Shown here in pieces: positions 6,226 through 61,726 of a DNA stretch of 64,000 bases. The DNA is taken from contig PBWR01000006.1 in assembly GCA_002727315.1 (NCBI GenBank), positions 320,094 to 384,093 on the forward strand, read 5' to 3'. A program made the translations under genes and the position numbers. Position 1 is the first letter of the stretch. The number at the start of each line of letters is the position of its first letter. The DNA is from Alphaproteobacteria bacterium. GTDB lineage: Bacteria; Pseudomonadota; Alphaproteobacteria; UBA6615. The notes beneath the pieces were generated by a model. That model was not told the origin of the DNA. It worked only from the letters and a program-made list of their open reading frames with translations, and ran no database searches.

Positions 6226-6861
6226 TTATCCGGCGGTAGCCGCGCCGGAAGATGTATCGTTGAAACCCCCGGCGGTCAAAATGAACCCGGCCACTTCATC
6301 CACACCGACCCCGGATTTCAAGTTGGTGAAGAGATAGGGCCGATCATCACGCATCTTGCGTGAATCCCTGTCCATCACGTCCAGGTCCGCGCCAACATGG
6401 GGGGCCAGATCGATTTTGTTGATCACGAGCAGGTCCGAGCGCGTGATTCCGGGGCCACCCTTCCGCGGGATCTTGTCACCCGCGGATACGTCGATGACGT
6501 AAATCGTGATGTCCGCGAGTTCCGGGGAGAAGGTCGCGGCCAGATTGTCACCCCCGGATTCAACCAGGACGATGTCCAGTGCCGGAAAAAGCGTTACCAT
6601 CTCGGCGATTGCCGCGAGATTGATGGATGCATCCTCGCGGATCGCGGTGTGCGGGCAACCGCCGGTCTCCACACCCTTGATGCGTTCCGGCGGCAGCGCC
6701 CCCGACCGGGTCAGGAACTGGGCGTCCTCTTCGGTGTAGATGTCATTGGTGATCGCCGCGATGTCGTGATCGTCGCGGAGCTTCTTGCACAGCGCATCCA
6801 TGAGCGCGGTCTTGCCGGTGCCGACCGGACCGCCGATGCCGACGCGGAAGGGTTTGGTCAT
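6226..6861 (-). CDS. ureG: Urease accessory GTPase UreG
   Basis: UreG is the GTPase that drives nickel delivery to apo-urease in complex with UreD/H and UreF (211 aa, full length). The P-loop [10 protein letters not shown] lies at residues 10-19. The metal-binding invariant CPH motif is seen in [13 protein letters not shown], the G3-like segment in [18 protein letters not shown], and the guanine-specificity motif in [13 protein letters not shown]. Its ATG overlaps the ureF stop by 4 bases (translational coupling), so it belongs to the ure operon. Confidence 0.97.
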
Positions 6862-7565
6862 GATCGAAAGAGCCTCGTGTATTGGGTTTCGTGGATTGAT
6901 GACGCCCAGTCGACCATGAAGGCCGCAGAGCCGATATCTTCGGGCGCGCGGTCAAGCGCCACGCGGGCCGCCGCAACGATTTCCGGTTCCAGGGTCGCGA
7001 GCACATGCAGCCCGTCGCTCTGCCCCAGGGGGATCAACCGGACACCGGCAGAGACGATGTTTGCCGCGAACGCGTGGAGATAGGCTTCCAGGGCGGGTAA
7101 CAGCGCCACGTCATGGGCGGCGGCCACCGATCCGACCGCCACCGGATAGACGACCCGCCGGTCCAGGGCCTCGACGCGGTCACACACATGATCGATCGCA
7201 ATATGGGGCCAATGACGGGCCGCCGCGCTCAGGAATGCTGCCCCCTGCGCGGTGGTCTCCAGGCCCAGTTCGGAAGTTGCCTGCAAGGCATCGCCGCGCT
7301 CAAGCGCGCAGTCGAGCAGATCCGGGTCTTCGGCATCGATGGCGGTCCAGGCGGCCCGAAACAGGGCTGCATCGATCCGCCCGGACCCGGTGGCGATGAT
7401 CGTGCGGATCCAGGCCGCGAGCGTTTCGCGGTCGCTGACGAGCCCGTCCTCGACCGCAGCCTCAAGCCCGTGGGAATAGCTGAACGCGCCGACCGGGAAG
7501 GACGGCGACAGCCATGTCAAGAGCCGCTGCAGCTGGGTGCCGGAAATGCCGGTCTCAATGGTCAT
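6858..7565 (-). CDS. ureF: Urease accessory protein UreF
   Basis: UreF joins UreD and UreG in the urease activation complex and acts as the GTPase regulator. The all-helical 235-aa protein has the family N-terminal motif [21 protein letters not shown]. The frame is open upstream, but the start is set at the ATG at 7565 (MTIETG), which overlaps the ureE end by 11 bases; an earlier in-frame ATG at 7601 lies well inside ureE. It overlaps ureG by 4 bases at the other end. Confidence 0.95.
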
Positions 7566-8022
7566 GATGATGTCCACCCCCGCCACCTTCGGCATAGGCA
7601 CCCGGCTCCGGTGAGAACGGCGCCCGCTTGGCCTCGGTCTCCGCGCCCAGGCGGGACACCATGTCAGCGATCACATGGTCGGCCCGGATACGCAGCCCGC
7701 CATCGTCCAGAACCTGGATCGGAATGTGCCGGTTGCCGATATGCCAAGCGACGCGCGCGGTGGCTTGTAGGTCGCGACAACGCACATCGATCACATCCTC
7801 CTCGGCGGCACGCACCTGCACAATCCCGCCATCCTCGAGACGTAGCCCGTCGCCCTCGTTCATCCGGGCCACATCGGCCAGATCGAGCAGAAACTCACCG
7901 CCCCCGTCATCGATCAGGCGCAGGCGCCGGCGATGCCGGTCGTCAAAGGCCAGCGTCACGCTGGCGACCGCCTCACCTTCGGGCCATGACCCGGCCGGAA
8001 CGATTTCGGTTGCCCGCCGCAT
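7555..8022 (-). CDS. ureE: Urease accessory nickel chaperone UreE
   Basis: UreE binds nickel and hands it to the urease activation complex. The 155-aa protein has the N-terminal peptide-binding domain (RRRLRLIDDGGGEFLLDL) and a C-terminal metal-binding domain containing WHIGNRHIPIQ. It ends in a short His-rich tail ([10 protein letters not shown]), the usual extra nickel site in bacterial UreE. It begins 2 bases after the ureC stop and overlaps ureF. Confidence 0.96.
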   Translation of the reverse strand: MRRATEIVPAGSWPEGEAVASVTLAFDDRHRRRLRLIDDGGGEFLLDLADVARMNEGDGLRLEDGGIVQVRAAEEDVIDVRCRDLQATARVAWHIGNRHIPIQVLDDGGLRIRADHVIADMVSRLGAETEAKRAPFSPEPGAYAEGGGGGHHHDH

Positions 8023-8024
8023 GA

Positions 8025-9734
8025 TCAGAACAGGAAGTAGCGCTGTGCCATGGGAAGTTCCTCGGCCGGCTCACAGGTCAAGAGCTCACCGTCCGCATGG
8101 ACTTCGTAGGTCTCGGGATCGACTTCGATCACCGGGGTCTCGCCATTCAGGATCATGGTCTTCTTGGAGACCGACCGCGTGTCGCGCACCGGCAGCACCT
8201 CGCGCGACAGGCCGAGCTGCCCGCCGATATCTGCCGCGGCGGCCGCCGCTGAGACGAAGGTGACGGAACTGGACGTCTTAGAGGCGCCGAAGCTGCCGAA
8301 CATGGGACGATAGTGAACCGGCTGCGGTGTCGGGATCGAGGCGTTGGGATCACCCATCGCCGCACCGGCAATCGTCCCCGCCTTGACGATCAGGTCCGGT
8401 TTCACACCGAAGAACATGGGCTTCCAGAGCACCAGGTCGGCCAGCTTTCCGACCTCGACCGAGCCCACATGGTCGGCGATGCCGTGACACAGGGCGGGAT
8501 TGATCGTGTACTTGGCGATGTAGCGACGGACCCGGAAATTGTCATTCTCGCCGGTCTCGTCGGCCAACCGCCCGCGCTGTCGTTTCATCTTGTCCGCCGT
8601 CTGCCAGGTGCGGATCACCACCTCGCCGACCCGGCCCATGGCCTGGCTGTCGGACGCGATCATCGAGAAGGCCCCGAGATCGTGAAGGATATCCTCCGCC
8701 GCGATGGTCTCGCGGCGAATACGGCTCTCGGCGAAGGCCACATCTTCGGGAATGCGCGAGTCCAGATGGTGGCAGACCATCAGCATGTCGAGATGCTCGT
8801 CGACCGTGTTGACCGTGTAGGGCCGCGTCGGATTGGTCGAGGATGGCAGGACGTTCGCCTCACCGGCGAGACGGATGATGTCCGGCGCATGGCCGCCGCC
8901 CGCCCCCTCGGTGTGGAAGGCGTGAATCGTGCGCCCCTTGAAGGCCGCGATGGTGTTCTCGACGAAGCAGGATTCGTTGAGTGTATCGGTGTGGATCGCC
9001 ACCTGGATGTCCATCTCCTCGGCAACGGACAGGCAAGCATCGATGGCCGCCGGGGTTGTACCCCAGTCTTCGTGCAGCTTCAGCCCGATCGCCCCGCCAG
9101 CGACCTGCTCGATCAGCGCATCCGGTACCGTGGAGTTTCCCTTACCGAAGAAACCGAGATTGACCGGAAAGCCCTCCGCCGCCTGCAGCATGCGCGCGAG
9201 ATGCCAGGGGCCCGGCGTGCAGGTGGTGGCGTTGGTGCCTTCGGCGGGGCCGGTGCCTCCGCCGAGCATCGTGGTGACGCCGGAATACAGCGCTTCGTCG
9301 ATCTGCTGTGGGCTGATCCAGTGAATATGGGCATCGATGGCGCCGGCGGTGACGATCCGGCCCTCACCGGCGATTGCCTCGGTTCCCGGCCCGATCACAA
9401 TATCCACGCCGGGCTGGATATCGGGGTTGCCAGCCTTGCCGATTCCGACAATCCGGCCGTCGCGCACACCGATATCGGCCTTCACGATCCCCCAATGATC
9501 CACAATCAGTGCATTGGTGATGACCGTATCGACGGCACCCTGGGCCCGGGTCGCCTGGGACTGCCCCATACCGTCGCGGATCACCTTGCCGCCGCCGAAC
9601 TTTACCTCTTCGCCATAGATCGTGTGATCGCGCTCCACTTCGATCACCAGCTCGGTGTCGGCGAGCCGCACCCGGTCGCCGACCGTCGGGCCGAACATCG
9701 AGGCGTAGCTTGCACGGTTGATCGAATAGGCCAT
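8025..9734 (-). CDS. ureC: Urease alpha subunit UreC
   Basis: UreC is the catalytic subunit that hydrolyses urea to ammonia and carbamate in the cytosol. At 569 aa it is standard length. All nickel ligands are present: His136 and His138 (AHIHW), the carbamylated Lys219 (GLKLHEDWG), His248, His274 and Asp362 (ASDSQAMG). The catalytic His322 is in the [18 protein letters not shown] flap. It is preceded 3 bases upstream by ureB, with a GGGGAGGG ribosome site at the end of that gene. Separate ureA, ureB and ureC genes are the usual bacterial arrangement. Confidence 0.98.
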
Positions 9735-9737
9735 CGC

Positions 9738-10061
9738 TCAACCCTCCCCGGCGCCGTCGAGCGGGCCATTGACGCGCCCGTTGAAGCCAAACACGCGTCC
9801 GGCGCCGGCATAGCGGACCAGATCGACGGCCCGCGTCTGTCCCGGCTCGAAACGCACCGCCGTGCCGGCCGGTATATCCAGACGGAAACCACGCGCAGCG
9901 TCGCGGTCGAATTCGAGCGCCGGATTGGTTTCGTGGAAATGATAGTGGGAACCGACCTGGATCGGCCGGTCGCCCGTGTTCGCCACGTCGAGGCGCAGCG
10001 TCTCGCGCCCCTCGTTGAGGAGCAGTTCGCCGTCGGCAGGAAATAGTTCTCCAGGGATCAT
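9738..10061 (-). CDS. ureB: Urease beta subunit UreB
   Basis: Structural beta subunit of the (UreABC)3 urease trimer (107 aa). The family opening MIPGELFP, followed by [17 protein letters not shown] and the [12 protein letters not shown] end, are all recognisable. It lies between ureA (7-base gap) and ureC (3-base gap) in the same minus-strand operon. Confidence 0.97.
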
Positions 10062-10068
10062 GTGGGCC

Positions 10069-10371
10069 TCAACGGATCGGATTGTGCACGGTGACTAGCT
10101 TGGTCCCATCGGGGAACGTCGCTTCGACCTGGACGTCGTGGATCATCTCGGCGACCCCGTCCATGACATCATCCCGGCCGAGGATTTCGCCGCCGGCGCT
10201 CATCAGCTCGGCGACCGAGCGGCCGTCGCGCGCACCCTCGACCACGAAGTCCGAAATCAGCGCGATCGCCTCGGGATAATTGAGCTTCACGCCCCGGGCC
10301 TGTCGCTTGCGCGCCACATCGGCGGCCATTGCGACCAGCAGCTTGTCCTTCTCGCGTGGTGTGAGATGCAT
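10069..10371 (-). CDS. ureA: Urease gamma subunit UreA
   Basis: Structural gamma subunit of urease (100 aa). It has the typical [11 protein letters not shown] start, [11 protein letters not shown], and the C-terminal [30 protein letters not shown] ribosome site precedes the ATG. It is located 27 bases downstream of ureD. Confidence 0.97.
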
Positions 10372-10398: not shown

Positions 10399-11223
10399 CT
10401 AGATGGCCCAGAGCCGGGGCATCGCCGCCGGCAGCTCAGCAATCCGGTGGCGGAAATCCGCCCAGAATTTTCCATAGGTGTCGCGCAGGCGGCGCGCATC
10501 GCGCCCGAGCCAGCGCACGATCAGCACATCGCCCACGCATGTCGCCGCGCACCGCAGATCACGGTCGGCCGTCACTGCGTCCAGGCCAGCGCGGGCAGAC
10601 GGCAACAGCGCGGCCGCATCGTCGCCGGCATAGACCATGCTGGCGAAAGCGGCGGCCCCGTCGAAACCGGCCGCCGCCGTCAGCGTATTCGTGACATCGC
10701 CGTCGAGATGCACCGCGTCGGCCCAGACAAGCCGCCCCCCGCGGTGCACGTCCCAGGCCTCGTGCACCAACCCGTCTTGCAGCACCTCACCCATCGCGGC
10801 GCGGCCGAAGACGATCATCTCTCCGGCCAGCAGGCGCCCGCCCGGCGCGACATCGAGCTCCGCTCGGCGGCGCAGCCGCGCGGAATCGAACACAATCGTT
10901 TCCTGGGGCAGCCATTCCAGCCAGCCATCGGCCGCGACGGACAGGCGCATGTCGATCCGGACATCGGCCCCAGTCGAGCGGTAGACCTTCTCTGCCGCCT
11001 GCCCGACGACGCGCGCCGTCGCACCGGCCCCGGCGGCGACCGAGATGGACAGATGATCGCCTCCGACCAGGCCGCCCGACGTGGTCACAAGCGTCGCGGT
11101 TTCGGGCTCACCGGCGCCGGGATCGGGAAACAGGATCCGCAGAGGGTCACTCTGGTAGAGATGAGACAGGCGTGTGCGACCGTCCGTATATGCGAAGTCT
11201 ATTTCTGCACGCCCGGATGCCAT
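10399..11223 (-). CDS. ureD: Urease accessory protein UreD (UreH)
   Basis: UreD is the scaffold that binds apo-urease and recruits UreF and UreG for nickel insertion (274 aa). Family features include a LVTTSGGLVGGDHLSISVAAGAG-type region (about residues 45-67), VGQAAEKVYRS, and LEWLPQETIVFDSARLRR. It starts 18 bases after urtE, which links the transporter and enzyme halves of the urea locus into one transcription unit. Confidence 0.95.
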   Translation of the reverse strand: MASGRAEIDFAYTDGRTRLSHLYQSDPLRILFPDPGAGEPETATLVTTSGGLVGGDHLSISVAAGAGATARVVGQAAEKVYRSTGADVRIDMRLSVAADGWLEWLPQETIVFDSARLRRRAELDVAPGGRLLAGEMIVFGRAAMGEVLQDGLVHEAWDVHRGGRLVWADAVHLDGDVTNTLTAAAGFDGAAAFASMVYAGDDAAALLPSARAGLDAVTADRDLRCAATCVGDVLIVRWLGRDARRLRDTYGKFWADFRHRIAELPAAMPRLWAI

Positions 11224-11241: not shown

Positions 11242-11937
11242 CTAGACCGTAAGGTGCCGACGGATCTCGGATTCGGGCAATTCCCCGATCGGACCGGACA
11301 ACACGGTCTCGCCCCGGTCCATCACGGTGACACGGTCGGCCAGGTCGCGGGCAAACTCGTAATATTGTTCGACCAGCAGGATCGCCATCTCCCCCTGGTC
11401 GGCGAGCAACCGGATTACCGCCTCGATGTCCTTGATGATCGAGGGCTGGATGCCCTCGGTCGGCTCGTCGAGGACCAGAAGCTGCGGGCGGGTCACCAGC
11501 GCGCGGCCGATGGCGAGTTGCTGCTGCTGGCCGCCCGAAAGATCGCCGCCACGGCGCCCGAGCATGTCCGACAGGACGGGGAAAAGCTCGAAGACCTGGT
11601 CGGGGATGCGAGGGCGACCGTGTGGCAGACAGGCGAAACCCGTCATCAGGTTCTCCTCGACGGTCAGCCGGGGAAAGATGTCGCGTCCCTGGGGCACATA
11701 GGCGATGCCGCGCCGGGCCCGTGCATGGGCCGGCAGGCGCCCGATCAGCTCCCCATCCCATGTGACGGTGCCACTGCGGATCGGCGCATGACCGGTCAGG
11801 CCGCGCAGAAGCGAGGTCTTGCCAACACCGTTGCGGCCCAGCAGGCATGTCACCTGGCCCCGCGCGGCCGTAACATCGGCACCGCGCAGAATGTGGCTCG
11901 CGCCGTAGTAGAGGTTGATGTCCTTGGCTTCCAGCAT
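11242..11937 (-). CDS. urtE: Urea ABC transporter ATP-binding protein UrtE
   Basis: One of two ATPases of the urea importer, in the LivF-like branch (231 aa). Walker A is GRNGVGKTS (about residues 34-42), the Q-loop region is YVPQGRDIFPRLTVEENL, the signature is LSGGQQQQLAIGRAL, and Walker B is LLVLDEPTEGIQPS. QGRDIFPRLTVEENL and the position next to urtD and ureD separate it from branched-chain amino acid LivF. It begins 2 bases after the urtD stop. Confidence 0.95.
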   Translation of the reverse strand: MLEAKDINLYYGASHILRGADVTAARGQVTCLLGRNGVGKTSLLRGLTGHAPIRSGTVTWDGELIGRLPAHARARRGIAYVPQGRDIFPRLTVEENLMTGFACLPHGRPRIPDQVFELFPVLSDMLGRRGGDLSGGQQQQLAIGRALVTRPQLLVLDEPTEGIQPSIIKDIEAVIRLLADQGEMAILLVEQYYEFARDLADRVTVMDRGETVLSGPIGELPESEIRRHLTV

Positions 11938-11939
11938 GG

Positions 11940-12722
11940 TCAGCGGCCCAGATAGACTTCGATGACCCGGGGGTCGGACTGGACACTGTCCATGGGCCCC
12001 TCAGCGATAACGCTGCCCTCGTGCAGCACCGTGACCATGCATTCGAGGTTCCGCACGAATTCCATGTCGTGCTCGACGACCACCAGCGAATGGTCCTTCG
12101 CGATCTCCATCAGGAGCGCCACCGTCTGCTCGGTCTCGGCATCGCTCATCCCTGCGACCGGCTCGTCGAGCAGCATCAATTCCGGTTCCTGGGCCAGCAG
12201 CATGCCGATCTCCAGCCACTGTTTCTGACCATGGCTGAGATCGCCCGCCAGATCCTCGCGCCGTGCGCCAAGCCGGGTCGTCTCAAGAGTCTGGTCGATA
12301 CGGTCGCGCTGTTCGCCGCGGATGCGTGCGAACAGGGTTTCGGTCACGCTGCGGTTCGTCTTGAGCGCGAGATAGATGTTCTCGAAGACCGTCAGGCTTT
12401 CGAAGACGGTCGGCTTCTGGAACTTGCGCCCGATGCCGAGATTGGCGATCGCGGTCTCGTCCAGATGGGTCAGATTGGTGTCGGCAGCGAACAGGACGCG
12501 GCCGGTGTCGGGCCGGGTCCTGCCGGTGACCACATCCATCATGGTCGTCTTGCCGGCGCCGTTGGGACCAATGATCGCGCGCATTTCGCCCCGGCGAATG
12601 ATCAGGTTGAGGCTGTTCAACGCCTTGAAGCCGTCGAAGCTGACGGACACGCCCTCGAGATAGAGGATCGATTCCGTCACCCCGGCGCCCGGTGCGTCGT
12701 GGCGGGGATCGAGATCAGGCAT
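11940..12722 (-). CDS. urtD: Urea ABC transporter ATP-binding protein UrtD
   Basis: Second ATPase of the urea importer, LivG-like (260 aa). Walker A is IIGPNGAGKTTMMDVVTG, the signature is DLSHGQKQWLEIGMLL (the SHGQKQWLEIG form is characteristic of UrtD), and Walker B is LMLLDEPVAGMSDAE. The frame is open far upstream, but the ATG at 12722 is chosen: it overlaps the urtC stop by 8 bases and gives the normal family length. Co-transcribed with urtC and urtE. Confidence 0.95.
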   Translation of the reverse strand: MPDLDPRHDAPGAGVTESILYLEGVSVSFDGFKALNSLNLIIRRGEMRAIIGPNGAGKTTMMDVVTGRTRPDTGRVLFAADTNLTHLDETAIANLGIGRKFQKPTVFESLTVFENIYLALKTNRSVTETLFARIRGEQRDRIDQTLETTRLGARREDLAGDLSHGQKQWLEIGMLLAQEPELMLLDEPVAGMSDAETEQTVALLMEIAKDHSLVVVEHDMEFVRNLECMVTVLHEGSVIAEGPMDSVQSDPRVIEVYLGR

Positions 12723-13857
12723 CGACACGTTGCAACCTCCGACCGATCGCATCCTTGAACTGGCCCGATCGGATCGACTGGTAGACCCCGACGATCCCCC
12801 TGGGCATGGCCAGGGTGACGAGAATGAACAGTGCGCCCAGGAAGAATAGCCAGATCTCCGGCGCCGCCCCGGTGAAGTATGTGCGCGCGCCGTTGACCGC
12901 GAAGGCACCAAGGATCGCCCCGAACAGGGTGCCTCTGCCGCCGACCGCGACCCAGATCGCGATCTCGATCGACTTGGCAGGCGCGAACTCCCCCGGGTTA
13001 ATGATGCCCACCTGGGGCACGTAGAGCGCTCCGGCGAGGCCCGCGAGCATCGCAGACAGGGTGAAGACGAACAGCTTGGCGTTGGTGACCGAGTAACCCA
13101 GGAAACGTACCCGGCTCTCGGCATCGCGCACGGCGATCAACAGGCGTCCCATCTTCGAGGTCACGACCGCCCGGCAGACGAAGTAAACCAGCAGCAGGCT
13201 CGCCGCCGTCGCGATATAGAGGCCGACCTTGGTGGTGTCGCGCGACAGGTCAAAACCGAGGATATCCTTGAAGTCGGTCAGGCCGTTGTTGCCGCCGAAG
13301 CCCATCTCGTTGCGGAAGAAGGCCAGCATGAAGGCAAAGACCATGGCCTGGCTGATGATCGAGAAGTAGACGCCCGTGATTCGCGAACGGAAGGCGAACC
13401 AGCCGAAGACGAAGGCCAGAAGGCCGGGCACGGCCAGCACCATCAGGGCGGCGAACCAGAACTGGTCGAAGCCGAACCAGTACCAGGGCAGCGTGTCCCA
13501 GTTGAGGAACACCATGAAGTCGGGTAGTTCCGGATTGCCGTAGACACCACGCTCGCCAATCTGGCGCATCATGTACATGCCCATGGCATAGCCGCCGAGC
13601 CCGAAGAAGGCGCCGTGGCCCAGGCTCAGGATGCCAGCATAGCCCCAGATCAAGTCGAGGGACAGGGCGAGGATCGCAAAGGCAAGATACTTGCCGAGCG
13701 TCGCCACCCAGAAAGTCGGGAGGTGGAAAGCCGAGCCCGGCGGCACGGCCAGGTTCAGCACCGGCACGACGACGAGCGCGAGCACGGCGAACACCATCAC
13801 GGTGGCCCAGCCGCGCCGGCTTTCAAGCGCGAGCAGGCGGGTCGAGATCGGTCCCAT
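12715..13857 (-). CDS. urtC: Urea ABC transporter permease UrtC
   Basis: Membrane permease of the urea importer (380 aa), LivM-like, with about ten predicted helices. The family core GYAGILSLGHGAFFGLGGYAMGMYM is visible (about residues 75-100). AGLAGALYVPQVGIINP and the WVAVGGRGTLFGAILGA motif contact the ATPases. It lies 9 bases downstream of urtB and overlaps urtD by 8 bases. Confidence 0.95.
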   Translation of the reverse strand: MGPISTRLLALESRRGWATVMVFAVLALVVVPVLNLAVPPGSAFHLPTFWVATLGKYLAFAILALSLDLIWGYAGILSLGHGAFFGLGGYAMGMYMMRQIGERGVYGNPELPDFMVFLNWDTLPWYWFGFDQFWFAALMVLAVPGLLAFVFGWFAFRSRITGVYFSIISQAMVFAFMLAFFRNEMGFGGNNGLTDFKDILGFDLSRDTTKVGLYIATAASLLLVYFVCRAVVTSKMGRLLIAVRDAESRVRFLGYSVTNAKLFVFTLSAMLAGLAGALYVPQVGIINPGEFAPAKSIEIAIWVAVGGRGTLFGAILGAFAVNGARTYFTGAAPEIWLFFLGALFILVTLAMPRGIVGVYQSIRSGQFKDAIGRRLQRVDA

Positions 13858-13866
13858 CGCCGCCCC

Positions 13867-15555
13867 CTAGGCCTCGGCCGCCCGCCCCTTGAGGGCGAAC
13901 AGGCCGCGCGGCCGCTTCTGGATGAACAGGATGATGATCACCAGCACAACCACCTTGCCGAGAATCGCGCCGGAGACGGGCTCGAGGAACTTGTTCACGA
14001 TCCCGAGGCTGAAGGCGCCGACAATCGTGCCCCAAAGGCTGCCGACACCGCCAAACACCACGACCATGAAACTGTCGACGATGAAATTCTGGCCGAGGTT
14101 CGGGCTGACGTTCGAGATCTGGCTGAGCGCCACACCGGCGACACCCGCGATGCCGGAGCCGAGCGCGAAGGTGAGCGCATCGACCCGCCCCGTGCGAATG
14201 CCCATGGCCGAGGCCATGCCGCGGTTCTGGGTGACGGCGCGCATCTGCAGGCCGAACCGGCTGTGGCGGATGAAGGCAGCGAGCGCCACCACGACCACCA
14301 GGGAGAAGATGATGATGTAGACCCGGTTGAGCGTGATCGACACGCCGCCACCGAGCGAGACCGCGCCGGAGATCCAGTCGGGATTGGCCACCTCGCGGTT
14401 GTTGGCGCCGAACAGCGAACGGACCAGCTGCTGCAGGATCAGGCTGACGCCCCAGGTCGCAAGCAGGGTCTCGAGCGGGCGGCCGTACAGGAAGCGGATG
14501 CAGCCGCGCTCGATCAGCACGCCGAAACCGGCGGCAACGAGAAACGCGGCTGGAATCGCCGCCGCGACGTACCAGCCAAACACCTCGGGCGGCAGGGACG
14601 AGCGGAAGATTTCCTGCACGAGGAAGGTCGTGTAGGCGCCAAGCATGATCATCTCGCCATAGGCCATGTTGATCACGCCCATGACGCCGAAGGTGATGGC
14701 GAGGCCAATGGCGGCGAGCAGCAAGACCGAGCCGAGGCTCAAACCGAAGATCAGGTTCTCCGCCAGCCCGAACAGGGCTAGCCGGTCCTCGATATCCTCG
14801 ACCGCGGCCTGGACGGTCGCGCGGATCTCGGCGTCGGGCTCGACGAAACCGCCCTCGTCGTTGGCGAGCAGGCGCTGCTCGAGCGCCGACTTGATGGCCG
14901 GATCAGAACGATCGGCCAGCGCCGCCACAGCGGCGAGACGCAGGTCACGGTCATCCGACGCAAGCTCGAGCATTGCGATCCCGGTCTCAAGCGTCGCGCG
15001 GACACCCGCATCGGTCTCGCGGTCGCGTGCGCGCTTGAGCAGCGGCAGGGAATCGTCGCTCGGGCTGGCGATCACATTCTCGGCCGCCGCGCGCCGGGTG
15101 TCGGGATCGGCGCTGAACAGCGCAAGCTGGCCGAGCACGCCACGGATCTGGCCGCGCAGCTTGTTGTTGGCGACGATCCTCTTGACGGCGCGGCTGGCAA
15201 CAGTGCCGATCTCAGTGCCGTCGACGGGATTGGTCAGAATGTAGGTCTTGTCATCGCGCGTGCCGATGAAGACCAGCTTGTCGGCCTTGCGGCGATACAG
15301 CCGGCCGTCGGCGAAGGCTTCCAGGACGCTAATCGCCCGGTCATCGTCGAGCGCCCCGAGGGCCTCCACGGCCTCGGCCTTGCCTGAGAATTTTCGCGCA
15401 TCGAGCGCCTGGACGGCAGCCGCGAAGGTGTCGTCCAGGCTCTGGGCATGCGCCGGCGCGAGTGCCAGCAGCAGCGCTGTCATCAGCAGTCCGAGGCCGA
15501 CGAGAACGGCCCGACAATCAGGGCGCAGGGCGCCCCGTGTTCGGCTTGAAGCCAT
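13867..15555 (-). CDS. urtB: Urea ABC transporter permease UrtB
   Basis: Second permease of the urea importer (562 aa). Residues 1-38 look like a signal peptide ending APAHAQS. A region of about 220 residues, rich in Ala and Asp helices (HEAT-like), is followed by the LivH-type permease domain beginning near residue 255 (FGVMGVINMAYGEMIMLGAY). This long extracytoplasmic N-terminal extension is typical of UrtB and distinguishes it from LivH. The gene is separated from urtA by 104 bases containing a hairpin, which may set a higher level for the binding protein. Confidence 0.95.
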   Translation of the reverse strand: MASSRTRGALRPDCRAVLVGLGLLMTALLLALAPAHAQSLDDTFAAAVQALDARKFSGKAEAVEALGALDDDRAISVLEAFADGRLYRRKADKLVFIGTRDDKTYILTNPVDGTEIGTVASRAVKRIVANNKLRGQIRGVLGQLALFSADPDTRRAAAENVIASPSDDSLPLLKRARDRETDAGVRATLETGIAMLELASDDRDLRLAAVAALADRSDPAIKSALEQRLLANDEGGFVEPDAEIRATVQAAVEDIEDRLALFGLAENLIFGLSLGSVLLLAAIGLAITFGVMGVINMAYGEMIMLGAYTTFLVQEIFRSSLPPEVFGWYVAAAIPAAFLVAAGFGVLIERGCIRFLYGRPLETLLATWGVSLILQQLVRSLFGANNREVANPDWISGAVSLGGGVSITLNRVYIIIFSLVVVVALAAFIRHSRFGLQMRAVTQNRGMASAMGIRTGRVDALTFALGSGIAGVAGVALSQISNVSPNLGQNFIVDSFMVVVFGGVGSLWGTIVGAFSLGIVNKFLEPVSGAILGKVVVLVIIILFIQKRPRGLFALKGRAAEA

Positions 15556-15611
15556 GAATTACCATCCCGATTTGTGAGTTATTATTTTTTGTTTGTCGGT
15601 GACGGTCCGGG

Positions 15612-15632
15612 CGCCCCGGAAAATCCGAGGCG
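15612..15632 (-). promoter_or_regulatory. Intercistronic hairpin between urtA and urtB
   Basis: Read on the minus strand the RNA forms CGCCTCGG-ATTTT-CCGGGGCG, an 8-bp stem with one G-U pair and a 5-base loop. It sits about 30 bases after the urtA stop. Such hairpins often stabilise the upstream binding-protein message or attenuate read-through. There is no T-run directly after it, so I do not call a full terminator. Confidence 0.45.
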
Positions 15633-15659
15633 GCCGAAACCGCAGGGTCGGTACGGAGA

Positions 15660-16943
15660 CTAGTTGGTCAGGTGCTTGGGCTTCTCGCAGTTGCCGCAGA
15701 CCCAGGGGTAGGTCCAGTCGGCCGTGAGTTTCGCGCTTTCGGGGATGAAGTCGCTCCACGCATCGCCGACAACCACACCATCGGTTTCCCAGACGGTGGC
15801 GAACTGGCCGTCGTCCTGGATCTCGCCGATGAGAACCGGCTTGGAGAGGGGATGATTGACGTTCATCACCGCGGGGCCGCCGGTCAGGTTCTTAACCTCC
15901 TGGCCGTACATGGCCTGGCGGACGGCATCGATGTTGGTCGTGCCGGCCTGCTCGACCGCCTGCACCCACATGTTGAAACCAATGTAGTGCGCCTCCATCG
16001 GATCGTTGAACACACGGGCGTCGTCGCCAATGAACGCGTGCCACTTGGAGATCACGTCGGAATTGGTGTCATCGTCGACGCTCATGAAGTAGTTCCACGC
16101 TGCCAGATGGCCGACGAGCGGGCCGGTGTCGATACCGGCAAGCTCTTCCTCACCGACCGAGAAGGCCACGACCGGGATGTCCTCGGCCTTGATGCCCTGG
16201 TTGGCGAGCTCCTTGTAGAACGGGACGTTCGCATCGCCGTTGATGGTGGAGACTACCGCGGTCTTCTTACCCGCAGCCGCGAACTTCTTGATGTCGGAGA
16301 CGATCGTCTGCCAGTCGGAATGCCCAAACGGCGTGTAGTTGATCATGATGTCACTGGCCGGAACGCCCTTGGCCTTGAGGAACGCCTCGAGGATCTTGTT
16401 GGTCGTGCGCGGATAGACATAGTCGGTCCCCGCAAGCACCCAACGCTTGGCCTCGCCGCCATCCTCACTCATCAGGTATTCGACAGCCGGGATCGCCTGC
16501 TGGTTCGGCGCGGCGCCCGTATAGAAGATGTTGCGCGAGGATTCTTCACCCTCGTACTGGACCGGATAGAAGAGCATTCCGTTGAGCTCTTCGAAGACCG
16601 GGAGCACGGATTTGCGCGACACCGAGGTCCAGTTGCCGAACACCACATCGACCTTGTGCTGCTCAATCAGCTCGCGCGCCTTCTCGGCGAACAGGGGCCA
16701 GTCGGAGGCCGGATCGACGACCACCGGTTCGATCTGCTTGCCCAGCAAGCCGCCCTTCTTGTTCTGCTCATCGATCAGGAACAGCATAACATCCTTCAGC
16801 GCGGTCTCGCTGATGGCCATAGTTCCCGACAGAGAGTGCAGGATCCCCACCTTGATCGTGTCGGCCGCTTGCGCAGTCGTCGCCATCGTCAGCGAGCCCG
16901 CGAGCGCACCCGCCGCCGCAAGGATTTTTAGGCTTTTGAACAT
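15660..16943 (-). CDS. urtA: Urea ABC transporter substrate-binding protein UrtA
   Basis: Periplasmic urea receptor (427 aa). The start is the ATG at 16943, preceded by the strong ribosome site GGAGGTGGAGA. An upstream in-frame ATG at 16988 would spoil the signal peptide. Residues 1-26 form a signal peptide (FKSLKILAAAGALAGSL...AQA). The mature protein opens with TIKVGILHSLSGTMAISE, diagnostic for UrtA, and ends with a CGNCEKPKH tail found in this family. It is the first gene of the urt-ure operon and is preceded by a sigma-54-type promoter. Confidence 0.96.
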   Translation of the reverse strand: MFKSLKILAAAGALAGSLTMATTAQAADTIKVGILHSLSGTMAISETALKDVMLFLIDEQNKKGGLLGKQIEPVVVDPASDWPLFAEKARELIEQHKVDVVFGNWTSVSRKSVLPVFEELNGMLFYPVQYEGEESSRNIFYTGAAPNQQAIPAVEYLMSEDGGEAKRWVLAGTDYVYPRTTNKILEAFLKAKGVPASDIMINYTPFGHSDWQTIVSDIKKFAAAGKKTAVVSTINGDANVPFYKELANQGIKAEDIPVVAFSVGEEELAGIDTGPLVGHLAAWNYFMSVDDDTNSDVISKWHAFIGDDARVFNDPMEAHYIGFNMWVQAVEQAGTTNIDAVRQAMYGQEVKNLTGGPAVMNVNHPLSKPVLIGEIQDDGQFATVWETDGVVVGDAWSDFIPESAKLTADWTYPWVCGNCEKPKHLTN

Positions 16944-16982
16944 TCTCCACCTCCAGATTCGTGATGTGCATCGCAATATAGA

Positions 16983-17000
16983 TAGCAAGCGCTATGCCAA
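16983..17000 (-). promoter_or_regulatory. Sigma-54 (-24/-12) promoter of the urt-ure operon
   Basis: On the minus strand the sequence is TTGGCATAGCGCTTGCTA: GG, exactly ten bases, then GC, in the contexts TTGGCA and TTGCTA that match the sigma-54 consensus. The predicted start is near 16973, about 30 bases before the urtA ATG. Sigma-54 promoters need an enhancer-binding activator; two candidate NtrC dyads lie about 100-147 bases upstream of the predicted start. Confidence 0.75.
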
Positions 17001-17074
17001 CGCCTCTCGACGTATTAAGTTCTTGTTTTGAAAATCAATTTCGAAGACAGATCTAAAACTGGCGAGTCCAAATA

Positions 17075-17091
17075 TGCCCACTTTTTAGGCA
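17075..17091. promoter_or_regulatory. NtrC-like binding dyad 1
   Basis: TGCCCACTTTTTAGGCA is a 17-base dyad that shares TGC, the central TTTT and GCA with the enteric NtrC consensus TGCACC-N5-GGTGCA (about 11 of 17 positions against a typical site). It lies about 100-120 bases upstream of the predicted sigma-54 start, the usual enhancer distance. Confidence 0.5.
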
Positions 17092-17103
17092 CTTAAAATT
17101 TGA

Positions 17104-17120
17104 TGCCTAATATTTGGACA
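17104..17120. promoter_or_regulatory. NtrC-like binding dyad 2
   Basis: TGCCTAATATTTGGACA is a second, weaker 17-base site, centred 29 bases from the first. Paired sites nearly three helical turns apart are common for NtrC oligomerisation. The two sites also sit in a larger symmetric array: TCCAAATAT (17067-17075) and TTAGGCA (17085-17091) are mirrored by TGCCTAATATTTGGA (17104-17118). Confidence 0.45.
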
Positions 17121-17215
17121 ATCAAGTTTGAAACCGCCGAGGCCGCCAAACGAGCTTGCCCGCCGCCGGGTTAAACGCCAACCTTCGGCGCTGCCAAGAG
17201 CCCGGGGAGAAATCA

Positions 17216-17650
17216 TTGTCCAAAATGACCGGCCGTTGCCATTGCGGGAATCTCGAGATCGTCTTCGAGACGAACCTGTCGCCCAAAGACATGGTGCCGC
17301 GCGCGTGCCAGTGCTCGTTCTGCCGCAAACACTCGACGGCAGCGATCTCGGACCCGGCCGGGCACGTCACCTTCCTGGCCAAAGATCCCAAAAAGCTGAA
17401 CCGGTACACGTTCGGGCTCGGCAGCACGGAGTTCCTGATCTGCCGGACCTGTGGGGTTTATGTGGGGGCCTTCATGCCATCAGGGGACGAGGCGGCCTTC
17501 GCGAATGTGATGGCCAGCGCCCTGGATCTCCGCGAGGAGTTCCCGAACCCGCCTATCGCCGTCCATCGAACCCAGGAGAATTTCGAGGAACGGCAAAACC
17601 GCCGGCGGGAAATGTGGACGCCGGCGACCCTGGTTCAAGTGCCCGAGTAG
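17216..17650 (+). CDS. GFA/CENP-V family zinc protein
   Basis: A 144-aa protein of the glutathione-dependent formaldehyde-activating (GFA) fold. The zinc-binding cysteines are visible as GRCHCGN, CQCSFCRKHS and CRTCGVYVG. Family members bind zinc and some act on S-hydroxymethylglutathione; most have no proven activity. I place the start at TTG 17216 because a GGGGAG site lies at the right distance. The ATG at 17225 (MTGRCHCG) is the alternative, and a far-upstream ATG at 17156 lacks support. It is divergent from urtA, so the intergenic region carries both promoters, and is followed by an MFS gene 31 bases on. Confidence 0.8.
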   Translation: MSKMTGRCHCGNLEIVFETNLSPKDMVPRACQCSFCRKHSTAAISDPAGHVTFLAKDPKKLNRYTFGLGSTEFLICRTCGVYVGAFMPSGDEAAFANVMASALDLREEFPNPPIAVHRTQENFEERQNRRREMWTPATLVQVPE

Positions 17651-35312: not shown

Positions 35313-36518
35313 CTAATCCTCCGACGCGACGACACCGGATTTGTGCAGTTCCGCAATTTCATCCGCGCTGTAACCGAGCTCTTCAAGAACCTCACCGGTC
35401 TGGGCCCCCACCTCGGGCGACGACGCGGCGAACGAGCTCGGCGTCCGCGACAGGCTCACCGGCTGGCGCGCGAAATGCTGGGTGCCCAGCGCGGGCGATT
35501 CCAGCGGCTGGACGATGCCCAGATGCGCAACCTGTTCGTCGCCGAACACCTCGCCGATGTCATAGATCGGACCGCAGGGCACGCCCGCCCCGTTGAACTT
35601 CGCGACCCAGGTGGCGGTGGTCTCTTCGGCGATGCAGTCATCGATGAGCCCGTTCAGGCGGTCACGGTTTTCCGAGCGCCCATCGGCGGTCTCGAATTCC
35701 GGGTCCGTCATCCATTCCTCGTGCCCGACCAGCCGGCAGAACCGGCCCCAGATCTCCTGACCGGCAACGGCGATGTTGATATGACCGTCACGGGTGGCGA
35801 ACACGCCGGTGGGAATGCTGGTCGGATGATTGTTCCCCGCCTGCCCGGGCACATCCTTATCGATCAGCCAGCGCGCCGACTGGAAATCGAGCATGAAGAT
35901 CTGGGCCTCGAGCAATGAGGTGTGGAGCCATTGGCCGCGGCCGGATTTCTCGCGTTCGAGCAATGCCAGCATTATCCCCTGGGATGCGAAAAGCCCGGCC
36001 GTGAGATCGGCGATGGGGATACCGACCCGCACCGGCCCCTGGCCCGGCAGGCCGGTGATCGACATCAGGCCGCCCATGCCCTGGGCGATCTGGTCGAAGC
36101 CGGGACGCTTGGCATAGGGCCCGTCCTGAACGAATCCGGAGATGCTTGCGAGGATGATGCGCGGATTGATCTCGGCCAGTGAATCATAGTCGATACCGAG
36201 CCGATGCTTCACATCGGGCCGGTAGTTCTCGACCACCACGTCGGCCTTGGCCGCAAGTTTGCGGAACACCTCCTTGCCCGCCTCTTCCTTGAGGTTCAGG
36301 GCCAGCGACCGCTTGTTGCGATGCAGGTTCTGGAAGTCCGAGCCATGGCGCGAGCCACCCAGGGCGGCACCGCCCTCCACGGCCGGCGGCATCTCCACCT
36401 TGATCACGTCCGCGCCCCAATCGGCCAGCTGTCGCACGCAGGTCGGGCCGGAGCGCACGCGGGTCAGATCGAGGACGGTGATGTGATCGAGGACGGAGGC
36501 AGCAGGTTTATGCGGCAT
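35313..36518 (-). CDS. CoA transferase family III (CaiB/BaiF)
   Basis: A 401-aa class III CoA transferase, which moves CoA between carboxylic acids. The N-terminus has LDLTRVRSGPTCVRQLADWGADVIKVE, the catalytic Asp is in the AEINPRIILASISGFVQDGPYAKRPGFD region, and GIPIADLTAGLFASQGIMLAL follows. The length is typical. It is flanked by a gamma-resorcylate-decarboxylase-like gene and a VOC gene, suggesting activation of an organic acid from an aromatic or ring-derived substrate. A paralogue is at 52408-53637. Confidence 0.92.
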   Translation of the reverse strand: MPHKPAASVLDHITVLDLTRVRSGPTCVRQLADWGADVIKVEMPPAVEGGAALGGSRHGSDFQNLHRNKRSLALNLKEEAGKEVFRKLAAKADVVVENYRPDVKHRLGIDYDSLAEINPRIILASISGFVQDGPYAKRPGFDQIAQGMGGLMSITGLPGQGPVRVGIPIADLTAGLFASQGIMLALLEREKSGRGQWLHTSLLEAQIFMLDFQSARWLIDKDVPGQAGNNHPTSIPTGVFATRDGHINIAVAGQEIWGRFCRLVGHEEWMTDPEFETADGRSENRDRLNGLIDDCIAEETTATWVAKFNGAGVPCGPIYDIGEVFGDEQVAHLGIVQPLESPALGTQHFARQPVSLSRTPSSFAASSPEVGAQTGEVLEELGYSADEIAELHKSGVVASED

Positions 36519-42246: not shown

Positions 42247-43305
42247 CTATGCCCTGAGCTTCTCGGCCATCCAGTCGGCCATCAGCGGGCGCGACTTAAA
42301 GGGAATGTTGTCGCAGACATGGTTGCCTTCGGGATACACCACGAGTTCCGCGTCCGCGCCCGCCTCGTCGATCATCAGCTGTGATTCCTCGACCGGGCAA
42401 ATCGTGTCGAGCCCGCTGTGCACGACCAGCAGCGGGCAGGTGATTTTCCCCAAAGAGCCCTCGAGCGTATAGAGCTTGGCCGTCTCGGCCGCCTCTTCCA
42501 CCGTCTCGTCGCCGAACGCGAAACGCAGCGTGTCCTGTACGGCAAACGGCATCCGGTTCCAGAAGTTCGACATGCTGTAGAAGCCGCCGATGGAGATACA
42601 GGCCTTGATGCGCGGGTCGACCGCCGCGCGCGGAGCGGCATAACCACCAAAGCTACGGCCCCAGATGCCGATCCGGTCGCCGTCAATCTCCGGGCGCGCC
42701 TGCAACGCATCGATCACCGCGCCGGCCGGCACCTCCCAGTCGGGTCGGATTCGCCATTTCCGCTGGGTCAGGCTCTGACCCGGCCCGTCATAGGCACACG
42801 TCGCCACACCACGCTTGAGAAACTCGTTCTCCAGAGTGTGAAACTCTTCCTTCGTGGAATCCCCGCCGCAGGTGATCATCACGCAAGGCGGCGGCCGGTC
42901 CGTGTCGGGCACACGAAGATTGGCCGGAAAGCTGTCGCCGTCGAAGCGAATGTCGATGACCTGTGCCGGAATGGCCAGATGCGGCGCGGCCTTGGCATAG
43001 GCCGCGCGCTGGCGGGTCTGGAAGCGGGCCTTCTCCTCCGGATCGGAAAACGAGACCGATTGGCCAATGTGAAAGTACAGCGCTGCACGGACAAAAGCTT
43101 CGCCAGCCGTCAGGGCGTGTCCCTCGGCGAGCGCCGCATCACCCAGCGCCTCGTGACCCTCGGCCAGCTCCTCCCACACAGGCATCCACTCATCCATGCT
43201 TGAGACCTTCGCGAGCACGCTCTGGGCATCGTTGTAGTCGAGCCCCGCGGCCATGAGACGCGGGAAGCGCCCCTCGATGATTTCCTGCAGTTCGGCGTCG
43301 GCCAT
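42247..43305 (-). CDS. Alpha/beta hydrolase, 2,6-dihydroxypseudooxynicotine hydrolase-like
   Basis: A 352-aa hydrolase with a helical N-terminal region (about 1-110) and an alpha/beta core. The blocks GGDSTKEEFHTLEN, YDGPGQ and GRSFGGYAAPRAA match the carbon-carbon hydrolase family of nicotine degradation and the FrsA-like esterases. The candidate triad is Ser218, Asp300 (HSGLD) and His329 (GNHVCDN). It is the last gene of an operon behind a dienelactone hydrolase (9-base gap) and a molybdenum hydroxylase subunit. The substrate is not known. A GAGGAAA site precedes the ATG. Confidence 0.85.
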   Translation of the reverse strand: MADAELQEIIEGRFPRLMAAGLDYNDAQSVLAKVSSMDEWMPVWEELAEGHEALGDAALAEGHALTAGEAFVRAALYFHIGQSVSFSDPEEKARFQTRQRAAYAKAAPHLAIPAQVIDIRFDGDSFPANLRVPDTDRPPPCVMITCGGDSTKEEFHTLENEFLKRGVATCAYDGPGQSLTQRKWRIRPDWEVPAGAVIDALQARPEIDGDRIGIWGRSFGGYAAPRAAVDPRIKACISIGGFYSMSNFWNRMPFAVQDTLRFAFGDETVEEAAETAKLYTLEGSLGKITCPLLVVHSGLDTICPVEESQLMIDEAGADAELVVYPEGNHVCDNIPFKSRPLMADWMAEKLRA

Positions 43306-55501: not shown

Positions 55502-56707
55502 ATGAGCGACGCAAGAATCCCCGACGACCCCGCGGGCGCCCTCGTGCCCCACAACATCACCGAACCGATCCGCGGATCGGGTCAGGGGCCGCTCGCCGGC
55601 AAGACCTTCGCGGTGAAGGACCTCTATCACATCGCCGGGCGCAAGGTGTCGAACGGCAACCCGGACTATTACGACTGGGTCGAGCCGAAGACCGAAACCT
55701 CGCCGGCCGTCCAGAAATGCCTCGATGCCGGCGCCGACATTGTTGGCATCACCATTTGCGACGAGTTTTTCTACAGCCTGTCTGGCGACAACGCCCATTA
55801 CGGCGCGCCGAAGAACTTGCGGGCACCCGGGCGCATGCCCGGCGGCTCGTCCTCGGGCTCCGCGTCCGCGATGACGGCGCAGATGTGCGACTTCACGCTC
55901 GGTTCCGACACCGGCGGTTCTGTTCGGGTTCCGGCGTCCTTCTGTGGCCTGTACGGGCTGCGCCCGACTCATGGCCGGATCGACCTGTCCCACGCGCATC
56001 CCATGGCCCCGTCCTTCGACACGGCCGGATGGTTCACCAACGAAGCTGAGCTTTTCCGGGATATCGGCCCGGTGCTGCTCGATGAGAACGGCGTGGCCGG
56101 TTCACCGGAACGCATGCTGGTGCTCACCGATGCCTTCGACCGGGCCACACCGGATGTCCGCCAGGCGCTTGAGGCGGTCGTCGCCGCGGCTGCCGATGTC
56201 CTTCCGGAAGCCGAGGAGATTGCCGTGGCCGGAGACGACACGCTGAACATCTGGTGGGACGCCTTCCGCGTCCTGCAGGCGGGTGAGGTCCAGCAGACCA
56301 ACGTGCCCTGGGTGGAGGAGCACAAAGCCGAACTCGGCCCCGGCATCCGCGAGCGGTTCGCCATGGCCGCGGCCATCACGCCCGACGAGACCGTCGCGGC
56401 GAATGCCGTGCGCGATCGCGTACGGACGCGCCTCGCCACGCTTGCTGTGCCCGGCACGATCCTGTGTCTGCCGACGGCACCGGTGATCGCCCCGATGCTC
56501 GATGCCAGCGCCGAGGATCTGGAATTCTTCCGCGCCAACACGATGGCCCTGACCTGCATCGCGGGTCATACGGGCCTGCCGCAGATCGCCATTCCGGCGG
56601 CCGAAGTCGAAGGATGTCCGATCGGGCTGTCCTTCATCGGCTGGGCGGGCGGCGACGAAGCCCTGCTCGATCTTGCCGTTGCGATGCAGCCGTTCTGCGT
56701 CCGCTAG
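55502..56707 (+). CDS. Amidase (AMI1-like, amidase signature family)
   Basis: A 401-aa amidase, shorter than most family members and closest in pattern to plant AMI1. The triad residues are Lys39 (AVKDLYH), the cis-Ser in GGSSSGSA at 114-121, and the nucleophile Ser140 in SDTGGSVRVPASFCGL. AMI1 converts indole-3-acetamide and other amides to acids; the substrate here is unknown. It is directly downstream of the PuuE-like gene and likely works with it. Confidence 0.88.
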   Translation: MSDARIPDDPAGALVPHNITEPIRGSGQGPLAGKTFAVKDLYHIAGRKVSNGNPDYYDWVEPKTETSPAVQKCLDAGADIVGITICDEFFYSLSGDNAHYGAPKNLRAPGRMPGGSSSGSASAMTAQMCDFTLGSDTGGSVRVPASFCGLYGLRPTHGRIDLSHAHPMAPSFDTAGWFTNEAELFRDIGPVLLDENGVAGSPERMLVLTDAFDRATPDVRQALEAVVAAAADVLPEAEEIAVAGDDTLNIWWDAFRVLQAGEVQQTNVPWVEEHKAELGPGIRERFAMAAAITPDETVAANAVRDRVRTRLATLAVPGTILCLPTAPVIAPMLDASAEDLEFFRANTMALTCIAGHTGLPQIAIPAAEVEGCPIGLSFIGWAGGDEALLDLAVAMQPFCVR

Positions 56708-58248: not shown

Positions 58249-59235
58249 TCAGCCGTCGTAGCAGCCCGCCAGGCGGGCGCGCTGGCGCACCAGCCCCAGC
58301 ACCGTATCGATCGCGGGTGTTGCCACACCAACGATCCGCCCGAGCTCCTGGACCGAGGCCACCAGCGCGTCGATCTCCATCGGCCGGCCCAGTTCCAAAT
58401 CCTGCAGCATCGACGTCTTGTGGTCGCCCACTTCGCGTGCACCGGCGATGCGCTTGTCCACGTCGATCGCGAACTTGACCCCCAACGCCTCACCCACCGC
58501 CTGTGCCTCGACCATGACGGTTCGAATGACGGCGCAGACATCGGGATCGTCGATCATCTCGGCAAGGGTCCCGCCCGTCAGCGCAGAGATCGGGTTCAGC
58601 GAGACATTGCCCCAGAGCTTGACCCACATCTCGTCCCGGATGCGTGGGCGCACGGGCGCGCGCATGCCGGCGTCGGAGAACAGCTTCGACAGGGCCTGGA
58701 CCCGCTCGGTTCGCTCGCCCGACGGTTCCCCGAGCGTGAACCGGTTGCCGTATTCGTGTCGGATGACCCCCGGTTCGATGATCTCCGTGGCCGGATAGAC
58801 GACACAGCCGATCGCCCGGTCGGGGCCGATCATCTCCCACTGGCGGTTGGCGGGATCCACCGATGCCACCCGCGTGCCCTCATGGGGACCGTCGAGTTCG
58901 TGGAAGTACCACCACGGCACGCCGTTCTGGGCCGTCACCAGCGCCGTTTCCGGCCCCAGAAGCGGCGCCATCTGGTCCGTCACCGCCGCGGCCGAATGGG
59001 CCTTCAGGGTGATGATGACGAAATCCTGCGGCCCGGCTTCGGCCGGGTCGTCTGTGGCGTTGACCGCGGCCACCTTCTCGGTGCCGTCCTCGTAGATGAG
59101 CCTGAGCCCGTTCGCCTGCATCGCCGCCAGGTGCGGGCCACGTGCAATGCATGTCACGTCGGCATCGCCCGCCTGCGCCAGCTCAACCGCCAGGTACCCA
59201 CCGATCGCGCCGGCGCCGTAGATGCAAACCTTCAT
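58249..59235 (-). CDS. Ketopantoate reductase family oxidoreductase
   Basis: A 328-aa NADPH-dependent PanE-like dehydrogenase: IYGAGAIGGYLAVELAQAG (Rossmann), TAQNGVPWWYF, and the catalytic Lys in RDEMWVKLWGNVSLNPISAL. It is 9 bases downstream of an acyl-CoA synthetase gene. With the paralogue at 20746-21771 there are two such genes in the window, and at least one is likely catabolic. Confidence 0.86.
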   Translation of the reverse strand: MKVCIYGAGAIGGYLAVELAQAGDADVTCIARGPHLAAMQANGLRLIYEDGTEKVAAVNATDDPAEAGPQDFVIITLKAHSAAAVTDQMAPLLGPETALVTAQNGVPWWYFHELDGPHEGTRVASVDPANRQWEMIGPDRAIGCVVYPATEIIEPGVIRHEYGNRFTLGEPSGERTERVQALSKLFSDAGMRAPVRPRIRDEMWVKLWGNVSLNPISALTGGTLAEMIDDPDVCAVIRTVMVEAQAVGEALGVKFAIDVDKRIAGAREVGDHKTSMLQDLELGRPMEIDALVASVQELGRIVGVATPAIDTVLGLVRQRARLAGCYDG

Positions 59236-61141: not shown

Positions 61142-61726
61142 CTAGCGCGACAGCGCGTCCAACTGCTTTCGAAGATTATCGATCTGGGTTTTCAGATCGT
61201 CGAGCTGCGCACCTCCACGATCGGTTTCACTCTCTGAACCGTCGCCCGCCGGCGCGTCTTCGGCACCGCCGCGTGGCGTGAACATCTGGAAGGCGCGCTC
61301 GAACATCGCCATGTTCTGGCGGCCCATTTCTTCCCACTGGGCAAACGGAAACATGCTGTTCCCGACCGCGCCCTGCATGTATTCGCGCATCCGGTCCTGG
61401 TTGTTCGAAAACGCGTCCATCGAGGCCTCGAGATAGTTCGGCACCATCGACTGCAGGCTGTCGCCATAGAACTGGATGAGCTGGCGGAGGAAACTGATCG
61501 GCAGCAAATTCTGCCCCTTGTTCTCCTCCTCGAAAATGATCTGCGTCAGAACCGAGCGCGTGATGTTGTCGCCGGATTTCGCATCGACCACCTGAAATTC
61601 CGTGCCGGCCTTCACCATCTGCGCCAGATCATCGAGCGTCACATACTTGCTCGTCGATGTGTTGTAGAGGCGCCGATTGGCGTATTTCTTGATCGTGATC
61701 GGGTCGTTCTTGTCAGAGTCGGCCAT
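61142..61726 (-). CDS. phaR: Polyhydroxyalkanoate synthesis repressor PhaR
   Basis: A 194-aa regulator that binds PHA granules and DNA and represses phasin and synthesis genes. The PHB_acc_N domain ITIKKYANRRLYNTSTSKYV is followed by the PHB_acc domain (LLPISFLRQLIQFYGDSLQ). The C-terminus ends in an amphipathic coiled-coil helix (LDDLKTQIDNLRKQLDAL). ATG 61726 is used because family similarity starts there; an upstream frame adds a poorly conserved stretch. Divergent from the PHA synthase genes. Confidence 0.93.
   Translation of the reverse strand: MADSDKNDPITIKKYANRRLYNTSTSKYVTLDDLAQMVKAGTEFQVVDAKSGDNITRSVLTQIIFEEENKGQNLLPISFLRQLIQFYGDSLQSMVPNYLEASMDAFSNNQDRMREYMQGAVGNSMFPFAQWEEMGRQNMAMFERAFQMFTPRGGAEDAPAGDGSESETDRGGAQLDDLKTQIDNLRKQLDALSR

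Follow-up and report, generated by a model that had tools for sequence, protein, structure and literature searches.

Enteric enhancer-promoters of the glnAp2 type combine a GG-N10-GC box with two tandem 17-bp dyads upstream of -100, and the enteric NtrC consensus reads TGCACC-N5-GGTGCA. As described in the available part of PMC5343134, the core NtrC regulon comprises glnA, amtB, glnBK and ntrBC, the NtrC regulons of Rhizobiales, Rhodobacterales, Alteromonadales and Oceanospirillales include urtABCDEF and ureABC, and for Rhizobiales and Rhodobacterales the NtrC targets already named include urea transporter and urease genes. In Caulobacter and Rhodobacter, NtrC lacks GAFTGA and acts without sigma-54, and the NtrC ChIP motif is described as related to E. 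coli Fis and NtrC (both from excerpts of PMC10274813). Operators of the repressor PhaR have been given as TGCRNYGCASMA in Bradyrhizobium diazoefficiens (excerpts of PMC6201568) and as CTGCNNNGCAG in Rhodobacter sphaeroides, while the Sinorhizobium meliloti PhaR motif, WNWD2NYGCRNYGCRNH2WNW, contains YGCRNYGCR (both from excerpts of PMC12542648).

Promoter elements upstream of the urea operon

Here we compare with these systems the region upstream of urtA in a 64-kb window (the whole stretch of DNA that was analysed, 64,000 nucleotides) of a genome of 2.24 Mb, assembled in 27 contigs and 87% complete, whose relatives place it in the Alphaproteobacteria. The genes urtABCDE and ureDABCEFG, each identified by NCBIfam or Pfam, all lie on the minus strand of this window and are collinear:

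15660-16943, minus strand: urtA, urea ABC transporter substrate-binding protein (TIGR03407)
13867-15555, minus strand: urtB (TIGR03409)
12715-13857, minus strand: urtC (TIGR03408)
11940-12758, minus strand: urtD, start codon uncertain (TIGR03411)
11242-11937, minus strand: urtE (TIGR03410)
10399-11223, minus strand: ureD (PF01774)
10069-10371, minus strand: ureA, urease gamma (PF00547)
9738-10061, minus strand: ureB, urease beta (PF00699)
8025-9734, minus strand: ureC, urease alpha (TIGR01792)
7555-8022, minus strand: ureE (PF05194 and PF02814)
6858-7601, minus strand: ureF, start codon uncertain (PF01730)
6226-6861, minus strand: ureG (TIGR00101)

Between urtA and urtB lie about 104 bp (15556-15659), a gap that may separate their expression. 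On its other side, urtA shares its intergenic region with a divergent GFA-family gene (PF04828, 17156-17650). This gene adjoins urtA in four genus relatives (L007-L010) as well as here (L006) and was absent from the remaining 91 of the 96 urtA loci searched; the NtrC sites described below could also serve it.

Three elements were read in this region:

16984-17001, minus strand: sigma-54 (RpoN) -24/-12 box TTGGCATAGCGCTTGCTA, of the form GG-N10-GC, read directly and backed by conservation
17075-17091: predicted promoter-proximal NtrC-type dyad of 17 bp, TGCCCACTTTTTAGGCA (minus strand TGCCTAAAAAGTGGGCA)
17104-17120: predicted promoter-distal NtrC-type dyad of 17 bp, TGCCTAATATTTGGACA (minus strand TGTCCAAATATTAGGCA)

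Direct reading confirmed both the GG-N10-GC box and the 29-bp dyad pair that the initial annotation had placed here. The box has the sigma-54-type context TGGCAY-N5-TTGCW, with GG and GC 10 bp apart. Counting from the -12 C at 16985, we infer a transcription start at 16973, 30 nt 5' of the urtA ATG at 16943. The distance of 30 bases to urtA that had been ascribed to the box holds for this predicted start; the end of the box itself lies 41 nt before the ATG. No sigma-70-like promoter was found in 16880-17260, so that the -35/-10 promoter which the initial annotation had named as evidence against its own reading did not appear. Upstream of -100 stand the two tandem dyads of TGC-N11-GCA type, their starts 29 bp apart, the distal one ending in ACA rather than GCA.

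Within the window, the pattern TGGCAYN5YTGCW has a single match (0.24 expected; 22 of 100 shuffles give one or more), as does a TGC-N11-RCA pair at 29 bp (0.08 expected; 7 of 100 shuffles), and lone TGC-N11-RCA dyads show no excess (70 against 75 expected). Since such window-only statistics are weak, it is conservation that decides whether the box and dyads are real. We therefore turned to the 16 urtA loci at 69% identity or more, our own and 15 in other genomes searched. A sigma-54 box lies upstream of urtA in 14 of them (that of L015 counted by eye from its sequence) and is absent at L016 and L021. With the 29-bp spacing imposed in the search, a TG...CA dyad pair was found in 11 of the 14 box-bearing loci, 120-152 bp upstream of the box (120 bp in our genome), and was not found at L015, L018 and L019. 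The initial annotation had suggested just such a motif search upstream of urtA in relatives, and had held that conservation of both box and dyads would support its reading.

The arrangement extends beyond this family. Among 38 non-family sigma-54 urtA promoters (box score of at least 13 and 180 nt of upstream sequence), a good single site was present in 34 (1.8 expected from shuffles) and a pair in 21, all at 27-33 bp with the spacing left free between 18 and 39 (0.14 expected); kinship among the loci (7 of Mesorhizobium, 5 of our own genus) inflates counts throughout, and the shuffles, like those for the 47 promoters considered below, preserve base composition only. The non-family urtA loci number 80, of which 79 were used in one count, L116 being too short.

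A palindromic weight matrix pointed to the same sites. It was trained on 20 dyads of 10 relatives, with our own sequence excluded and with L015, L018 and L019 (no pair) and L016 and L021 (no box) omitted. By this matrix the two urtA dyads score highest and second highest among the 63,984 positions of the window, and by paired score the urtA pair ranks first of 63,955 (39.4 bits; next 7.7). The matrix is AT-rich and the window GC-rich, yet in 1000 column-shuffled palindromic versions the urtA pair never scored as high. The larger symmetric array noted earlier around the dyads, GTCCAAATAT/ATATTTGGAC, does exist here, with arms that match at 10 of 10 positions, but was rejected as a conserved feature: the 10 relatives reach at most 8 of 10 in any register, and 10/10 arms occur in our own genome only.

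Shared dyads and the nitrogen regulators

When we searched 22 genomes, our own included, for the paired dyads, seven places were found (reversed control, none), six of them upstream of glnK/amtB or urtA, with L069 as the exception. A search of 24 genomes of the order, allowing 11-13 bp between the dyads, returned 27 places, again with none in the reversed control. Nitrogen promoters account for 25 of these: dus-ntrBC or ntrBC (13), glnK/amtB (7) and urtA (5). In all, 23 of the 27 places were typed by tblastn, and one glnK/amtB place, 592 bp upstream of an amtB, and one urtA place (L012) were assigned by coordinates. One of the remaining two, at G019:C14 near a contig end, is a reverse-complement copy of the glnK site of the same genome; the other is on G017:C91. 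The NtrC-type dyad pair on that contig (L234, G017:C91:35779-35824) stands some 240 bp ahead of a gene for an MFS transporter, which is a possible further NtrC target. Judged from match lengths, the spacing is 28 bp in all 13 dus-ntrBC or ntrBC pairs, and among the 12 glnK/amtB and urtA pairs it is 29 bp in 11 and 30 bp in one.

In our own genome, the perfect single dyad TGNNYAWNNNWTRNNCA occurs at 12 places, a count barely above the 11 of the reversed control, so that only the places themselves are informative. The distal urtA dyad is one of them, and six of the 12 fall at dus-ntrBC (2), glnBA (1), glnK-amtB (2) and urtA (1); urtA thus has its dyads in common with the core NtrC targets of the same genome. 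The own glnK pair lies 118 bp upstream of its TGGCAC-N5-TTGA box, a distance similar to the 120 bp at urtA. The strict sigma-54 pattern passes over almost every glnK promoter, since the -12 element there mostly reads TTGA or TTGT; a looser scan recovers these promoters. At dus-ntrBC, where the pair is spaced at 28 bp (L162/L198, G000:C4:36346-36390), the proximal dyad overlaps the dus start codon, which suggests that NtrC may repress its own operon.

The genome encodes RpoN (PF04552, 224 bits, G000:C19) and an NtrC that matches the NCBIfam ntrC equivalog TIGR01818 at 709 bits, against a cut-off of 559, with receiver (PF00072), AAA+ (PF00158) and Fis-type helix-turn-helix (PF02954) domains and GAFTGA present. 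NtrX, encoded 4 kb from NtrC and lacking GAFTGA, is the only other real bEBP that we found in the genome; a third, weak PF00158 match reads, on inspection, as a Clp-type ATPase. In the ntrX gene (L037, G000:C4) the receiver and AAA+ domains are separated by an in-frame stop, either a sequencing error or a real truncation, while the ntrX frames of relatives are intact.

The initial annotation had remarked that the dyads differ from the enteric consensus and had suggested a divergent NtrC. The first part stands, since the urtA dyads match that consensus at 7 and 6 of 12 positions. The own glnK dyads are intermediate, at 9 of 12, and the alphaproteobacterial dyads of the relatives average 6.25 of 12. 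The second part does not: by its sequence NtrC is not divergent, and the AT-cored site is the usual one of the lineage. These matches locate the difference in the sites rather than in NtrC, and the other nitrogen promoters of the lineage depart from the enteric site likewise. The enteric consensus reflects a preference of enteric bacteria, to which NtrC sites as a class need not conform.

The elements, their conservation, the dyad pair common to other nitrogen promoters and the genes for RpoN and a GAFTGA-bearing NtrC are directly established. In light of the conserved box and pair, the occurrence of that pair at glnK-amtB and dus-ntrBC, and the two regulator genes, the stretch is very probably an NtrC-activated, sigma-54-dependent promoter of a urtABCDE-ureDABCEFG operon, as the initial annotation proposed in describing a sigma-54 promoter with two NtrC sites before the urea genes. 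We infer NtrC binding, control by phosphorylation and read-through of the whole operon as follows. Under nitrogen limitation, phosphorylated NtrC would bind both 17-bp dyads and assemble into oligomers. Across a DNA loop of about 120 bp it would then reach the RpoN polymerase complex at the GG-N10-GC box, which it would open at the cost of ATP, and transcripts starting near 16973 would extend through the collinear genes for urea uptake and urease.

Other explanations of the same elements fare poorly. The box and dyads might be correctly read and the activator be another bEBP, either NtrX, given its place close to NtrC, or one outside the assembled 87%; since genus relatives encode additional PF00158 proteins (bEBPs), another activator could indeed be missing from view. 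Yet NtrX of this genome is without GAFTGA, and the same pair marks dus-ntrBC and glnK-amtB, which belong to the core NtrC regulon in the available part of PMC5343134, and we consider such an activator very unlikely. It is harder still to credit that the dyads serve as operators for some unrelated regulator of nitrogen genes, such as one of LysR type, acting beside NtrC. As AT-cored TG-N13-CA palindromes they are unlike the enteric NtrC site, but a bEBP enhancer is what their fixed pairing at 28-29 bp, their position some 120-130 bp ahead of sigma-54 boxes and their occurrence at the ntrBC operon itself fit, and the own glnK sites come closer to the enteric consensus. That the arrangement arose by chance and has no function could be argued from the shuffles of the window alone, and is contradicted by a layout kept in relatives and across the class, which leaves this account scarcely credible.

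A PhaR-like dyad at the predicted start

Besides these elements, the promoter bears a conserved PhaR-like dyad on the start site, which the initial annotation did not mention. The features concerned are:

16964-16975, minus strand: PhaR-like dyad TGCGATGCA(CAT), with a 9-bp core at 16967-16975, covering the predicted +1; PhaR is its putative binder
61145-61786, minus strand: phaR, PHB-responsive repressor and candidate binder of the +1 dyad (PF07879 and PF05233; true start probably about 61726)
61786-61797, minus strand: TGCGATGCAACA upstream of phaR, its 9-bp core (61789-61797) identical to that of the urtA +1 dyad

The element was first seen as a leader core, GGTGCAAnnAAC, which 18 of 47 promoters match at 8 or more of its 10 positions (0.4 in shuffles), 12-13 nt after the GC in 17 of the 18. 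These 47 comprise the 14 box-bearing family loci and 33 of the 80 others (box score of 13 or more, with no more than 160 nt between box and match start). Expressed as TGCRNYGCA, it lies at the predicted +1 in 18 of the 47 urtA sigma-54 promoters (0.06 expected from shuffles), beginning 9-11 nt after the GC in 17 of them; it was noticed before the PhaR consensus was looked up, and discovery and count come from the same data. By group, it is present in 9 of the 14 family promoters and 9 of the 33 elsewhere, and the arrangement of box and +1 dyad is kept in our own genus, several relatives and Mesorhizobium. At glnK promoters TGCRNYGCA was found in none of 12.

Across 385 genomes of the class, the box followed by TGCRNYGCA and AAC occurs at four places, all of them urtA (three, in G129, G011 and G006, assigned by previously known loci), and at none in the reversed control. 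The box with GRTGCAA is less specific, since 7 of its 13 places lie elsewhere, flagellar genes among them; five of the others are urtA and one is urtA-like. G302 has both urtA and a urtA-like gene that is distant from it, at 27% identity (L178 and L185); the two are almost alike in sigma-54 promoter and leader (GGTGCAAGACAACCCC). Within the window TGCRNYGCA is frequent by chance, with 6 matches against 8.7 expected, so that the evidence for the +1 dyad lies in its position and conservation. Further window matches, expected by chance, are at 36317-36325, 42701-42709, 56680-56688 and 59143-59151.

Several observations point to PhaR as the binder. The own copy of the dyad, TGCGATGCACAT, agrees with the B. 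diazoefficiens operator at 11 of 12 positions, as counted by eye. PhaR is encoded in the window, the same motif stands at its own promoter, and TGCRNYGCA was found upstream of 12 of the 16 phaR genes examined, our own included. In S. meliloti, UreA and UreB are among the PhaR-repressed proteins, with modest fold changes, but the examined portion of the PhaR operator table lists neither a urt nor a ure promoter; PHB is described as accumulating at nutrient imbalance with excess carbon (all from excerpts of PMC12542648). We tentatively propose, with a confidence just short of an even chance, that the urt promoter acts as a two-input gate, at which NtrC~P would activate transcription when nitrogen is scarce and PhaR on the start site would block it, with release once stored PHB titrates the repressor off. 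Such a promoter would turn on urea scavenging solely in cells that are nitrogen-starved and carbon-replete at once.

The +1 dyad could instead be the site of another factor, or owe its conservation to the urtA leader, through initial transcription or through translation, and our belief in this also stops slightly below the halfway mark. It is favoured by L085, L087, L096 and L101, which keep only the right half, GGTGCAA, and no dyad, and by the 29 of 47 urtA promoters without TGCRNYGCA, among them L015 and L017, whose genomes (G008 and G013) have phaR; the frequency of the motif by chance in the window also speaks in its favour. It sits less well with a left half that covaries with the centre as the PhaR consensus permits (GGT, ATC, GAT, GCT), with the same sequence at the phaR promoters of the lineage, and with the part of the dyad that lies upstream of the predicted +1.

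Comparison with known systems

The urtA promoter has the same layout of box and dyads as the enteric glnAp2 type and differs from it at the inner dyad positions (7 and 6 of 12 matches). Its NtrC/sigma-54 part is thus of a known kind, textbook logic now found in a further alphaproteobacterial family, whereas the conserved +1 dyad is a new element and the composite promoter a variant. Our literature search, which covered listings and parts of papers, found no report of urt under PhaR regulation, and its listings held no description of a composite promoter that joins NtrC/sigma-54 elements to a +1 dyad. In practical terms, TGNNYAWNNNWTRNNCA paired at 28-29 bp provides a usable NtrC motif where the enteric consensus would miss sites. 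If PhaR binds the +1 dyad, this would be a direct link at the level of DNA from a carbon-storage sensor to nitrogen scavenging, and if the proposed two-input gate is true, the cell would check its carbon reserves before scavenging nitrogen.

Set beside NtrC of Caulobacter and Rhodobacter, as described in excerpts of PMC10274813, the regulator encoded here belongs to the same family and differs in having GAFTGA and targets with sigma-54 boxes. In contrast to the PhaR operators published in PMC6201568 and PMC12542648 (excerpts of both), the +1 dyad sits on the sigma-54/NtrC promoter of a urea operon. Compared with the NtrC regulons in the available part of PMC5343134, the targets are alike, with urea transport and urease genes in both, while the urtA promoter is set apart by the AT-cored site, its pairing at 29 bp (28 bp at dus-ntrBC) and the extra dyad at +1.
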